A stretch of DNA of 56,837 bases, from contig JANQNU010000042.1 in NCBI GenBank assembly GCA_028279405.1, positions 1 to 56,837 on the forward strand, given 5' to 3'. Both the position numbers and the translations under genes were made by a program. This document shows positions 30,576-34,134 of this stretch, piece by piece. Each line of letters begins with the position of its first letter. Position 1 is the first letter of the stretch. The notes under the pieces were generated by a model. That model ran no database searches and was not told the origin of the DNA. It saw only the letters and a program-made list of their open reading frames with translations. The DNA is from Phycisphaerae bacterium. GTDB taxonomy: Bacteria > Planctomycetota > Phycisphaerae > UBA1845 > Fen-1342.

Positions 30576-31606
30576 CACACCCTTCTCGCGTTGGAGCGTG
30601 TGCCTTCCGGCGGCATCACGAGTTGCGCCATCTGCCCGGCAACCGTGATCGTCGCGATTGCGCCGCTGTTGAACTCCAGGAAATCGGTCTCCATACCATC
30701 TGAGAAGATGACGCCGTGCTTGGGCATCAACGACTCGAGGATCAGTTGCTCTTCGCGCACCAGGGCGCCGGCTACGAGATTGGCCCCGCTGACGCGGCTT
30801 CGAAACGGTTCCCGCACAACCCAGAACAACCGTCGATCCGCGCGGCCCAACGGCGGCACATCGGGTGCGGGGGTGCCCGTCAGCCGAGCGATCCCGGCGG
30901 CCATATTGAACACGGAGGATAGCCAACCGGTCGCTCCGGCACCGGTCGCGACGAGCACGCCGCTGGAGGATTGCGCCTCGGAGCCTTCGGCGACTTCGAT
31001 GGTATACCGCGCCGATGCGTGCGATCGACACCCGATAAAGAGATCATTGAATGCCAACAGCCGCTGCCCGTCGTTGAGCCGAGCTTCGGCCATGGTGACC
31101 GTCGCGCTCCGGTGTCGACCCTCGAGGACGCGTTGAACGGCGTTTCGCACATTCGCCGACCGGAATGGCAGGAGTACGCCGTCGAGCCGCCCCGGATCCG
31201 GGTTGACCCCGACGATCGGCGTTTCGCCGACGTACTTCGCTGTGTTCGCCACCAACCCGTCCTGGCCGACCACGACGACGACTGCTGTGTTCCAGAAATC
31301 GAACGTCGGCAGCAGCGCACGATCCAGGACTTTCACTGGCAACCCAAGGTCCACCGCGGAGCGCACGTCGCCGATGGCGTCTTCGTAGGTCTGGTCTTCG
31401 TCCGCGTACTCGTCGAAATGCACGGCCGCCTTGACGCCCGCGGCGCGGCGCTGCTCGGATCCGAGCCCGGCCCGACGGGCGCGCTCGTGCTCGTGTGCGC
31501 TGGCCAGGCGGAACTTAGCCATCGCCGGAGAAACCCAACGCGCCTTGAGGTCACGATATCTAGTTTCTCTTCTGACTACGACGATCTTTGGCTTTGACGG
31601 CTGCAT
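30575..31606 (-). CDS. Divergent NAD(+)/NADH kinase-family protein
   Basis: 343 residues, longer than typical NAD kinase (about 290). The start KIVVVRRETRYRDLKARW fits the family. The signature GGDGT is altered to GQDGL (VVVVGQDGLVANTAKYVGET) but the catalytic Asp is kept; PIVGVNPDPGRLDGVLLPF, LAFNDLFIG (normally NE) and GVLVATGAGATGWLSS match the nucleotide-binding beta core in modified form. NAD kinases phosphorylate NAD to NADP; here the changed motifs leave activity uncertain. Its first 47 bases overlap the end of the SPFH gene, and its stop overlaps the EEP start, so all three form one operon. Confidence 0.8.
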   Translation of the reverse strand: MQPSKPKIVVVRRETRYRDLKARWVSPAMAKFRLASAHEHERARRAGLGSEQRRAAGVKAAVHFDEYADEDQTYEDAIGDVRSAVDLGLPVKVLDRALLPTFDFWNTAVVVVVGQDGLVANTAKYVGETPIVGVNPDPGRLDGVLLPFRSANVRNAVQRVLEGRHRSATVTMAEARLNDGQRLLAFNDLFIGCRSHASARYTIEVAEGSEAQSSSGVLVATGAGATGWLSSVFNMAAGIARLTGTPAPDVPPLGRADRRLFWVVREPFRSRVSGANLVAGALVREEQLILESLMPKHGVIFSDGMETDFLEFNSGAIATITVAGQMAQLVMPPEGTRSNARRV

Positions 31607-32588
31607 GATCGATGATCGTCTCCGCAGAGGGCGTCGACCCGTTTCCCTCGAGCAAGCTTGAAAGCAGGTCGGGCGTGATGTTCAACGTGCCGATCTTCTC
31701 GGCGCGCTCGGCGAGTTCACGGAACGCGATCGCGATATGGTCGCCGGCGCCCGCGCCACCGGTCGCCATCAGGGTTCGCCAGTCGGCGTCGCGCATCGCT
31801 TCCACTACTGCCTTGATGGCCTCGGCGCGCGCGCCGGACTCGAGCCGCTGATTAGCGACCTTGCGCTCGACGAGTGTCGACCGCTGCTGCTCGATCGCGA
31901 TCTCCGCCTCCATCTGTTTCTCGCGCACGTTCCGTTTCTTGCGCGCGACCGCGATCTCTGTCTCCAGTTCGTTTTCCTTGATCTGGCGCTCCAGCTCGAC
32001 AGCAGCGTTACGCCGCGCGTAGACCGCCTCGTCCGCCTTTCGCAACAGTTCCTCGCGCGCGCCGGCCTGGATCGCTTTGCCCATCTCGGGCGTCGGCGCC
32101 AGCGAGAGCACGTTGAATGCCATCACTTCGACCCCGAGGTCGCCGACCACCTGCGACGTGCGCAGCCCGGCCAGGACATGCTCGGCGAGGGACGCGGAAT
32201 GAAGCAGCAGCGCATCGAGCGGGTGTTCGTGCGTGAACGAACGGGTCAGGGCCTGCGCCGGCGGAACAAGGCGGTCGTTGAGCTTGGTCGGATCGTCGGA
32301 GAGATAGCGGCCGGCGCCATCGACGCTGAAGTCGAGAATGTGGGCGACCCGTTCGGGGTCCGTGATGCGGTAGGTCAACTCGCCCTGGACCGTCACTTCC
32401 TGGTAGTCCGCCGTCATCTCGGTAAAGGCGTATGGCACATCGACGCTCGTCAGTGGAATACGGACGATTTCCGCGCTGAATCGCAGATAGAAGAAACTCA
32501 GGCCGGCCCCGCTCCGTCTGCGCTTTCCGTTCACGAAATGAATGACGTGCGTCGTCGGGGGCGCTTTTACGTAGCCGAATCCAAGCAT
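31560..32588 (-). CDS. SPFH/band-7 domain protein
   Basis: 342 residues. After a short N-terminal beta strand (MLGFGYVKAPPTTHVIHFVN) comes a band-7/SPFH domain (residues 35-180: VRIPLTSVDVPYAFTEMTAD, VQGELTYRITDPERVAHILD), then a long charged coiled coil (KADEAVYARRNAAVELERQI, KENELETEIAVARKKRNVRE) and a helical tail (GTLNITPDLLSSLL). There is no clear membrane helix. SPFH proteins assemble into large membrane-associated rings or scaffolds. GGAGG lies 8 bases before the ATG at 32588. It heads the operon with the NAD-kinase-like and EEP genes and starts 43 bases after the last tRNA gene. Confidence 0.85.
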   Translation of the reverse strand: MLGFGYVKAPPTTHVIHFVNGKRRRSGAGLSFFYLRFSAEIVRIPLTSVDVPYAFTEMTADYQEVTVQGELTYRITDPERVAHILDFSVDGAGRYLSDDPTKLNDRLVPPAQALTRSFTHEHPLDALLLHSASLAEHVLAGLRTSQVVGDLGVEVMAFNVLSLAPTPEMGKAIQAGAREELLRKADEAVYARRNAAVELERQIKENELETEIAVARKKRNVREKQMEAEIAIEQQRSTLVERKVANQRLESGARAEAIKAVVEAMRDADWRTLMATGGAGAGDHIAIAFRELAERAEKIGTLNITPDLLSSLLEGNGSTPSAETIIDHAAVKAKDRRSQKRN

Positions 32589-32630
32589 CGTCGGTCCTCC
32601 CTTTCGACTTCGATTCACATACGCTACCAC

Positions 32631-32721
32631 CGGAGCCCGGCGGAGTCGAACCGCGCACAAGCAGCTGCATGTGCCATCCCATTTCCAGCAGGCGGCCGGC
32701 ACCACGCCGACATCGGGCTCC
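32631..32721 (-). tRNA. tRNA-Ser(GGA) with 8/4 allo-tRNA architecture
   Basis: Minus strand, 91 bases including discriminator G. Acceptor GGAGCCCG pairs with CGGGCTCC, 8 perfect pairs. D stem GTCGGC/GCCGGC with loop GTGGT; anticodon loop CTGGAAA (GGA at 32684-32686, reads UCC/UCU); long variable arm with GCACA/TGTGC; T arm GCGG-TTCGACT-CCGC, only 4 pairs. In a 7/5 reading position 49 would face 65 as C-C, whereas position 8 (G) pairs with 65 (C). The anticodon stem is weak (two G-U pairs next to the loop, outer G-A). No CCA is encoded. The discriminator G and long variable arm are seryl identity features. Confidence 0.75.
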
Positions 32722-32726
32722 CGAAC

Positions 32727-32811
32727 CGGAGCGCAGAGGGCACGATCCCCAGACACGATGGTCCCACCTGTTTTCGAAACAGGGGCGGCGCCGACCGCCG
32801 CTTTACGCTCC
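32727..32811 (-). tRNA. tRNA-Ser(CGA) with 8/4 allo-tRNA architecture
   Basis: Minus strand, 85 bases with discriminator G. Acceptor GGAGCGTA pairs with TGCGCTCC in 8 pairs (one G-U). D stem GCGGCG/CGCCGC with loop GTCGG; anticodon arm CCTGT-TTCGAAA-ACAGG is perfect, anticodon CGA at 32774-32776 (reads UCG). The variable arm folds through GGAC/GTCT. T arm GGGG-ATCGTGC-CCTC has 4 pairs with one wobble; the loop has A54 and T58 instead of the usual T54/A58. Position 49 (T) cannot pair with 65 (T), but position 8 (A) can. It lies 5 bases upstream of the GGA gene. The unusual T loop makes functionality less sure than for its neighbours. Confidence 0.7.
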
Positions 32812-32823
32812 TCGAGTTGTCAA

Positions 32824-32911
32824 CGGACGGCAGAGGAGTCGAACCTCACGCCCCCGAAGGGGCGCCATCTCCTTAGCAGGGAGTGGCGGGCCCACGCCCG
32901 CGTTACCATCC
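32824..32911 (-). tRNA. tRNA-Ser(GCT) with 8/4 allo-tRNA architecture
   Basis: Minus strand, 88 bases with discriminator G. Acceptor GGATGGTA pairs with TGCCGTCC in 8 pairs (two G-U). D stem GCGGGC/GCCCGC with a 4-base loop GTGG, as in bacterial selenocysteine tRNA. Anticodon stem CTCC/GGAG with loop CTGCTAA, anticodon GCT at 32875-32877 (reads AGC/AGU). The variable arm is a 7-bp stem closed by a TTCG tetraloop. T arm GAGG-TTCGACT-CCTC has 4 pairs. Position 8 is A, not the near-universal T. Twelve bases separate it from the CGA gene. It is the first gene of the array in the direction of transcription. Confidence 0.75.
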
Positions 32912-32988
32912 CGGTCCATTTCTGCGAACCCCCATCTCGTCGGCCCCTGGCCATGCCGGCAGGATCGACCTCAGCATGAACGCGCATG

Positions 32989-33023
32989 AAAAAAGCCGAC
33001 CGACCTCGCGGGGCCGACCGGCT
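32989..33023 (-). terminator. Intrinsic terminator of the candidate small RNA
   Basis: On the minus strand AGCCGGTCGGCC pairs with GGTCGGTCGGCT over 12 positions (three G-U pairs) around the loop CCGCGA, followed directly by TTTTTT. No annotated gene ends just upstream, which points to a short RNA starting near 33140. Confidence 0.8.
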
Positions 33024-33140
33024 GGGATCACATGGCGATCATCAAACGGTTACCCGCTCGCGCGCGACCTCCCCGGACGGCCCACCTGGGACCAACTCAT
33101 AGATGAATTCCGTTCTTGCGCGGCAAATCGTTTCATGACG
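32989..33140 (-). ncRNA. Candidate small RNA of about 150 nt
   Basis: Bounded by a TTGACA-N17-GATATT promoter (33147-33175) and a strong terminator (32989-33023), with no substantial gene between. It does not show the SRP, tmRNA or RNase P signatures I know. A 28-codon ORF begins with an ATG at 33136, four or five bases after the expected start of transcription, so a leaderless small-protein mRNA is an alternative. It lies just upstream of the three tRNA-Ser genes on the same strand. Confidence 0.5.
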
Positions 33141-33146
33141 AGCGGC

Positions 33147-33175
33147 AATATCTCATTCGGCAAACGAGTTGTCAA
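33147..33175 (-). promoter_or_regulatory. Sigma-70-like promoter for the candidate small RNA
   Basis: Minus strand: consensus TTGACA at 33170-33175, exactly 17 bases, then GATATT at 33147-33152. It points towards the terminator at 32989 and away from the thioredoxin gene. Confidence 0.65.
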
Positions 33176-33285
33176 GAGCGATCTAAGCAATCCACCACCT
33201 CCGTCACACGCATGTGACGTGTGGGTGAGGAAGTGCCGCCGCGCTATAATGTGCGTCATGGAGCGGTTCCACATGGAGTCCGAAG

Positions 33286-34134
33286 ATGATCGAAACCACT
33301 TTCCGGTCGTTCTCACTGGTGGTCCTTCTCGCGACAGCAGCCACGGCGTCAGAAGTCAGCTGGCTGACGAATTGGGAGGAGGCGGTGACCGCATCGAGGG
33401 CGCAACGTAAGCCAATCTTCGTTGACGTGTTCACGACGTGGTGTCCGCCGTGCAAGCAGCTCGACGCCGAGACCTTCTCCGACAAGCAGTTCGCGACCTT
33501 GGCCGCCGACGTCGTGCTGCTCAAACAGGACGCCGAAAAGGGTGGCCGGGAGCTGGCCAAGCGGTATGGCGTCCGCGGTTACCCCACGCTACTGCTGTTG
33601 GATGCCGACGGGAAACTGATGGCGCGAATGGTGGGGTTCCAGCCGCCCGACCGGCTGGTTCGGCAAACCCGCCGGCTGATCGAGTTGAGCGCGCGCCTGC
33701 CCAAGATCGAAGCCGGGCTGAAGCAGCGGCCCACCGATCCGCAGCTGAACATGCAGCTGGCCGAACTGCTGTTCGCCCGCGATCGATCGATGGAGGCATT
33801 GAAGATCGTTGAAACGCTGGACAAGGCGGCGGTTCGAGAGCCCGCGATGGCACCGTTGTGTCTACGAGCGGCGCGAACACTGTTCGAACAGACCCCGCCC
33901 GTCGAACAGCAGCAGCCCGTGCTCGAACGGATCGCGAACCTGCTCAAGAAGGCCGACACGCTCGCAAAGGATGTCTATGTCGCGGCCGAGGCGAAGCTGA
34001 TGCTGGCCCAGTCGCACATGATCCGTGGCGAGCTCGACGTCGCACAGGACTACGCACGCGCGGTGACGGCGTTGGACGATGCCCCTCCACACATGCGTGA
34101 CTTTGCTCGACAGCTACTGCGATCGCTGAAGTAG
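33286..34134 (+). CDS. Secreted thioredoxin-fold protein with TPR-like tail
   Basis: 282 residues. N-terminal signal peptide (RSFSLVVLLATAATA). The thioredoxin domain spans about residues 25-125 with the redox motif TTWCPPCKQL (Cys-Pro-Pro-Cys) and the cis-Pro region VRGYPTLLLLDADGK. Residues 130-282 are helical repeats resembling TPRs (DPQLNMQLAELLFARDRSME, AAEAKLMLAQSHMIRGELDV). It probably exchanges disulfides or handles cytochrome or other exported substrates in the periplasm. GGAG precedes the ATG by 8 bases. It is transcribed away from the small RNA promoter. Confidence 0.88.
   Translation: MIETTFRSFSLVVLLATAATASEVSWLTNWEEAVTASRAQRKPIFVDVFTTWCPPCKQLDAETFSDKQFATLAADVVLLKQDAEKGGRELAKRYGVRGYPTLLLLDADGKLMARMVGFQPPDRLVRQTRRLIELSARLPKIEAGLKQRPTDPQLNMQLAELLFARDRSMEALKIVETLDKAAVREPAMAPLCLRAARTLFEQTPPVEQQQPVLERIANLLKKADTLAKDVYVAAEAKLMLAQSHMIRGELDVAQDYARAVTALDDAPPHMRDFARQLLRSLK

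Follow-up and report, generated by a model that had tools for sequence, protein, structure and literature searches.

The window analysed here, a 56,837-nucleotide stretch of a Phycisphaerae bacterium (contig JANQNU010000042.1), carries three tandem serine tRNA genes whose D arms resemble those of selenocysteine tRNA. This raises the question of whether they are the main serine tRNAs of the organism or a special set and, in the latter case, under which circumstances they would be used.

RESULTS

Three serine tRNA genes with an 8/4 fold

The genes for tRNA-Ser with the anticodons GCU (positions 32824-32911), CGA (32727-32811) and GGA (32631-32721) lie on the minus strand, separated by spacers of 12 and 5 bases. 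Each has an acceptor stem of 8 bp, A9, a D stem of 6 bp with a small loop of 4 or 5 bases, a long variable stem, a T stem of 4 bp and G73; CCA is not encoded. The preliminary description had read them as 8/4 serine tRNAs with D arms like those of tRNA-Sec, and both our structure scan and the pairing statistics confirmed this. Its D-stem positions, 11-16/22-27, hold in general but not for the GCU gene, whose D loop has 4 bases, so that the 3' D strand is 21-26. The GCU and GGA genes share a mismatch at the outermost pair of the anticodon stem, and the odd T loop of the CGA gene, ATCGTGC, was also seen in relatives.

Our own structure scan detected all three genes, and the 8:65 pair forms in each of them; ARAGORN called only CGA and GGA in the window and missed GCU. 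The general tRNA model RF00005 yielded 51 matches in the genome, none of them one of the three genes, and the tRNA-Sec model RF01852 scored GGA at 40.3 and GCU at 39.5 bits, both below its cut-off of 47. No Rfam family reached its gathering score in a scan of the window. The structure scanner, which was designed after the three tRNAs were already known, returned at a score of 21 exactly these three and no further match on either strand of the window.

In the three tRNAs alone, 96.4% of the structure cells were paired and 14 of 28 pairs showed two-sided changes, a level reached by none of 500 shuffles. An alignment of eleven tRNAs (these three and eight relatives), which was fitted to the model and is thus biased toward the 8/4 structure, gave 98.4% pairing with double changes at 19 of 28 pairs, again equalled by 0 of 500 shuffles. 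The 8:65 pair was present in 11 of 11, the 7/5 pair 49:65 in none, a clean result for 8/4 over 7/5, as had been proposed.

We also considered whether these genes encode tRNA-Sec and rejected this, given an acceptor branch of 12 pairs, not the 13 of tRNA-Sec, serine anticodons in place of UCA, the sub-threshold RF01852 scores and a separate tRNA-Sec in the genome (66.5 bits). The 8/4 fold itself is already known from allo-tRNAs, which, in the part of the review PMC7609411 drawn on here (citing Mukai et al. 2017), have a 12-bp 8/4 acceptor branch, a long D stem and a long variable arm, as in the window, and serine identity, for which the window tRNAs have the sequence features; polycistrons of allo-tRNAs are mentioned there as well. 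Most described allo-tRNAs have non-serine anticodons, whereas those of the window are GCU, CGA and GGA. Judged by these anticodons, the window tRNAs share the allo-tRNA fold but are not recoding allo-tRNAs, because the codons they would read are those of serine.

The array is an extra set

The genome assembly comprises 5.63 Mb in 92 contigs and is 95.5% complete. Outside the window's array it contains ordinary tRNA-Ser genes with the anticodons GCU, CGA, UGA and GGA, each above the RF00005 cut-off, together with one match to SelA and one to the N-domain family of seryl-tRNA synthetase (SerRS). Because this ordinary set is complete, the three 8/4 tRNAs are an extra set and cannot be the main one, which settles the question that the preliminary description had left open. 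It had also held that a complete ordinary set combined with decay of these copies would speak against its reading. The ordinary set is indeed complete, but the array does not look like a group of decaying copies, since compensatory changes maintain the fold, phages and further families also have relatives of these tRNAs, and the variant T loop is not confined to the window.

At the DNA level, comparison with 297 other genomes of the class revealed no close copy of the whole array; 22 of them gave short matches (23 to 62 bases, E 0.0003-0.01), one of which, in G264, falls within an 8/4 tRNA that the model later found. No matches to plasmids were obtained. Among other genomes with arrays, G060, which has 8/4 serine tRNAs, yielded eight class II genes, including Ser GCU, UGA, GGA (two) and CGA; the five class II genes fetched from G424 include Ser UGA and GGA, and the five from G513 include Ser GCU, GGA and CGA. 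The organism's own genome additionally encodes, outside arrays, a 74-base tRNA-Leu (UAA) that has no long variable arm (L041 101-174, G000:C57:61483-61556).

A candidate leader ORF and predicted terminator precede the array

Upstream of the array, a consensus scan found a sigma-70-like promoter, TTGACA-17-GATATT, whose second hexamer is preceded by TG (33147-33175, minus strand); it has 10 of 12 matches and is the sole such site in 32400-33350, where 0.2 would be expected. A predicted intrinsic terminator with a 12-bp stem, a loop of 6 bases and a T run (32994-33023, minus strand, terminator scan) ends 82 bases before the array. Between promoter-like site and predicted terminator, as located by sequence and consensus scans, lies an ORF of 28 codons on the same strand (33050-33136), encoding MKRFAAQERNSSMSWSQVGRPGRSRASG up to its stop codon. 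It contains each of the six serine codons, TCA, TCT, AGT, TCC, TCG and AGC, exactly once. The array has no UGA tRNA, yet the UCA codon is present in the leader. A clear ribosome site is lacking, the ATG lies only a few bases past the expected transcript start, and translation could instead begin at the 13th codon (33100), giving a shorter product.

Serine accounts for 6 of the 27 leader residues after Met, a share also found in 255 of 2,234 background short ORFs, and Ser-rich short ORFs are frequent in the surrounding DNA; we therefore rejected serine content alone as proof of a leader. All six serine codons were present in 3 of 326 ORFs of the window, one of them the leader, and in 20 of 6,608 at other loci.

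Folding was predicted as a function of ribosome position with an assumed footprint of 14 bases. With the A site at serine codons 11, 12 and 14, the predicted probability of the terminator was 0.00, and from the 15th codon onward it was 0.96-0.97. For footprints of 10-18 bases the change-over fell between the 14th and 17th codon, and with 16-18 bases a stall at the 14th codon stopped blocking the terminator. The count of terminator-free stall positions was matched by 21 of 120 shuffled leaders, so the folding switch predicted for the window does not rise above chance. Terminator and RNA-folding switch thus stand as predictions, and the window taken alone suggests an attenuator, short of proof. 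A switch was also predicted for the leaders of G060, G485 and C11 (a further array in the organism's own genome), with counts equalled in 1, 4 and 7 of 120 shuffles, respectively, and none was predicted for those of G424, G595 and G517.

A Band_7 gene follows the array

The last tRNA gene is followed after 42 bases by a gene for an SPFH/Band_7 protein of 342 amino acids (31560-32588, minus strand; Pfam PF01145, E 2e-15). As the terminator scan predicted no terminator between the two, this gene is probably part of the same transcript as the tRNAs. The preliminary description was right about the tRNAs and missed leader ORF, terminator and Band_7 gene; with these found, the picture shifts to that of a probably regulated cassette.

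The link between this gene and the array is positional only. In the genome collection, the closest named relatives of the protein are from Phycisphaerae and other Planctomycetota, and metagenome contigs encode SPFH relatives with up to 75% identity. We rejected Band_7 as a conserved partner of the array, since 80 loci of SPFH relatives gave no 8/4 hits at the scanner cut-off (the upstream flank was short in some, and two low-quality hits of other kinds, in L070 and L079, were disregarded); RtcB was likewise absent from these 80 loci. None of 36 array loci encodes the window's Band_7 family. An SPFH gene occurred in 1 of 60 relatives, the distant one of G044 (33%), with no tRNAs within its 4-kb locus, and a search of viral contigs for the SPFH protein found none.

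A different kind of Band_7 gene lies inside the array of G080, which also encloses an RtcB RNA ligase and an HNH-like gene, and the array of G264 contains RtcB and an HNH gene. In the 36 array loci, counting those of the queries, RtcB-like genes were present in 3 (one just 30% identical), G080-type Band_7 genes in 4 and HNH genes in 7. PADLOC models matched neither the two window proteins nor the two G080 proteins searched, and the G264 HNH protein gave weak HNH-type matches only. On contig C27 of the organism's own genome, an RtcB gene (G000:C27:26911-28245) and an unusual tRNA-Arg (ACG; L191 2078-2150) lie about 760 bases apart.

Related tRNAs and arrays behind leaders in other genomes

With covariance models built first from the window's tRNAs and then from the eleven tRNAs, 8/4 serine tRNAs scoring at least 47 bits were found in 5 of 397 genomes of the class; in the phylum, 22 of 392 genomes had matches of at least 55 bits, the own genome being counted in both figures; 52 of the 397 class genomes had matches at E <= 0.01. 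ARAGORN read 25 weaker loci as 18 Ser, 4 Sec and 1 Met, with 2 falling within further tRNA arrays. The latter (L162 and L176, in G168 and G102) are large arrays containing Ser tRNAs with weak model scores. Many related 8/4 serine tRNAs reside in Planctomycetota tRNA arrays, which range in size from 2 to 37 genes. At its low threshold ARAGORN reports many doubtful tRNAs, and array contents were therefore taken mainly from the default threshold and the models. Two single 8/4-like tRNAs (L221 1501-1588 in G580 and L223 1501-1588 in G555) have apparently non-serine anticodons, comparable to classical allo-tRNAs.

Several arrays follow short ORFs, given here up to their stop codons. Contig C11 has the leader MKKFAVYYFLLTLLRGGTV and a terminator, followed by Leu CAG, Leu GAG and a GUA tRNA. 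This third gene (L190 3679-3766), which comes after two short-armed Leu tRNAs, has 8/4 ends and CCCCAC / GTGGGG strands flanking its anticodon arm; an ordinary D hairpin was not seen in it. In G060, MNTNRSSSHSRHEQEQSCKDCSEVAMR and a terminator lie upstream of Glu, Arg, His, Ser and Ser tRNAs. The first array of G424 is preceded by MIACSYTLLVSLLAGGCGGMG and continues with Leu, Leu, Cys, Ser and Ser; its second array, on another contig, is preceded by MIVSHSKAIRDFAPRFERALRGHGPGGPTL, with amino acids largely complementary to those of the first. In G513, MMRRLPQHLLLRHPARA precedes Pro, Leu, His and Gln tRNAs, and in G158, MVAPRAILSCAYRLLSSRLSPVLA precedes Tyr, four Leu, Cys, two Ser and others. 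For G158, the second array of G424, and the arrays of G513 and others of f84, the leader was picked by eye, and the G158, second G424 and G513 arrays have no terminator that passes the rule given below. The f84 Ser leaders lack a terminator with a T run, and the two that were scored, among them the Ser leader of G513, fitted no better than chance (4/29 residues each). For a third array of G513 (Trp, Gly, Phe and others) no clear leader was found.

At L231, L233 and L234, leaders ending in LRSSSTH, LRSSSPCR and YLRSRSSH were observed directly 5' of Ser/Ser(/Tyr) arrays, with a hairpin that has no T run, and control may differ there. Upstream of the arrays at L246 and L292, TTGAC..GTCAA-like palindromes overlie the promoters, as if a repressor were binding too.

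Leader residues follow array content

Leaders were chosen mechanically as the longest ATG ORF of 12-40 codons that ends near a terminator within 420 bases. For the seven arrays entering the pairing test, four of which come from one family, 6 of 5,040 permutations were as good as the true pairing of leaders with arrays; restricted to four unlike arrays, 1 of 24 fitted, namely, the true pairing itself. Choosing the starts ourselves gave identical figures. When leaders picked by eye were added, 5 of 40,320 permutations of eight pairs were as good, and this set without G158 and the G513 Ser array had the true pairing as the best of 720. An earlier test with different leader choices had given 4/720 and 76/40,320. 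Tested singly against background ORFs, arrays ranged from p values of 0.005 (C11) and 0.02 (G060) up to 0.44 (G498, G513).

By the same rule, an ORF ending near a terminator was present upstream of 11 of 33 arrays, spanning five families, and absent upstream of the other 22, compared with 14 of 2,000 control windows, a contrast that may be flattered since the controls are random places in the same loci, mostly coding, and not upstream regions of other genes. The 33 include five housekeeping-like arrays of the order Thr-Tyr-Gly-Thr, none of which has an ORF with a terminator.

Large phages carry 8/4 serine tRNAs

Xanthomonas phage X1 carries 8/4 serine tRNAs with the anticodons GCU, CGA, UGA and GGA and encoded CCA; none of them is annotated as tRNA, and the annotated tRNAs of the region include no Ser. 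The same four anticodons in 8/4 form were found in Phaeobacter phage MD18. Phage DSS3_MAL1 gave four model matches, three of which can be read as CGA, GCU and GGA, and above 40 bits there was one match in DLP_6 and there were four in BL57, one of the latter reading as a GUA tRNA. In the large-phage loci L267, L268 and L269, the 8/4 serine sets are missing from the tRNAs of the deposited annotation.

DISCUSSION

We consider it probable that transcription attenuation turns on the three extra 8/4 serine tRNAs once ribosomes stall for want of tRNA-Ser. With charged tRNA-Ser plentiful, a ribosome would run through the leader and the terminator would end transcription; with charged tRNA-Ser scarce, it would halt on the serine codons, the RNA ahead would pair otherwise, and the polymerase could continue through the tRNA array into the Band_7 gene. 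Since the cassette would supply tRNA rather than an enzyme of serine synthesis, the likely signal would be loss or cutting of normal tRNA-Ser. The deviant fold would likely let the spare tRNAs escape the same cutter and still be charged by the one SerRS found, whose identity features, the long variable arm and G73, are present in the window tRNAs. Induction, co-transcription with Band_7, charging and resistance to cutting are what we infer from this arrangement.

Attenuators with regulatory codons in amino-acid biosynthetic operons classically sense amino-acid supply, and in the trp and his operons a promoter, a leader ORF rich in regulatory codons and a terminator precede the first gene. The window has the same order as these leader-peptide attenuators but differs from them in that the genes controlled would be the very tRNAs that read the regulatory codons. 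The classical precedent speaks for an attenuator responding to serine starvation, with free serine as the signal and the tRNAs or the Band_7 protein acting in the starvation response. We nevertheless regard this as improbable: surplus tRNA would be useless if the amino acid itself were missing, the Tyr/Leu, Pro/Leu/His/Gln and mixed leaders fit tRNA sets rather than pathways, and some related arrays contain an RNA ligase. Somewhat less improbable, though still unlikely, is that these are extra serine tRNAs of the allo-tRNA type, expressed constitutively to raise decoding capacity, with the upstream ORF and terminator there by chance or for unrelated reasons. Such a role would agree with the abundance of Ser-rich short ORFs nearby, with a folding switch not clearly above shuffles and with the function of allo-tRNAs in E. 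coli translation described in the consulted part of PMC7609411; it accounts poorly for the excess of ORF plus terminator at arrays over random, mostly coding controls (11/33 versus 14/2,000), for leader residues that follow array content and for the lack of ORF plus terminator at the five housekeeping-like arrays.

A link to selenocysteine, in which the Sec-like D arm would let SelA convert serine on these tRNAs and so place selenocysteine at some serine codons, appears very improbable. SelA and tRNA-Sec are both encoded in the genome, SelA makes contact with a long D stem, and 9/3 allo-tRNAs are sequestered by SelA according to the portions of PMC7609411 and PMC7590224 used here; the plain serine anticodons and the 12-pair acceptor branch argue against it, as does the same fold in large phages, judged from the phage sequences.

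Returning to tRNA-sensing attenuation, we lean, with less assurance than for the window itself, toward a widespread class of self-sensing replacement cassettes, in which arrays of deviant tRNAs each sit behind a mini-gene spelling their amino acids, and loss of a given tRNA induces its cutter-resistant spare, with full sets of the same 8/4 serine tRNAs also present in large phages. Phage tRNAs that resist cutting of host tRNAs are reported in PMC10264068 and PMC11555353, where replacement tRNAs answer cutting enzymes, as proposed here; in the phage case the anticodon loop is changed (PMC10264068), whereas here the whole fold deviates and the carrier is a bacterial genome.

A further parallel is the trn operon of Anabaena PCC 7120, which, like the window's genes, is an extra tRNA array beside a housekeeping set. 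As reported in PMC10272220, deletion of trcR raises this otherwise silent operon of 26 tRNAs along with rtcB and the genes for a slipin and an HNH protein; translation stress relieves the repression by TrcR. RtcB, Band_7 and HNH genes are found inside some of the arrays related to ours. Control in Anabaena is exerted by a DNA-binding repressor, whereas a leader-peptide attenuator is predicted here. Leader or terminator control of allo-tRNAs is not mentioned in the consulted part of PMC7609411, and a literature search that covered few subscription papers returned no title or abstract start describing leader-peptide attenuators of tRNA arrays.

If the proposal is true, tRNA arrays would gain a logic, in that ribosome stalling senses the loss of a tRNA and a differently folded tRNA replaces it. 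The 8/4 fold would then have a concrete reason, namely, escape from tRNA-cutting enzymes while remaining a substrate of SerRS, and the bacterial arrays would be tied to large phages with unannotated 8/4 serine sets of four anticodons. The function of allo-tRNA-like genes would thereby become testable with a simple reporter.
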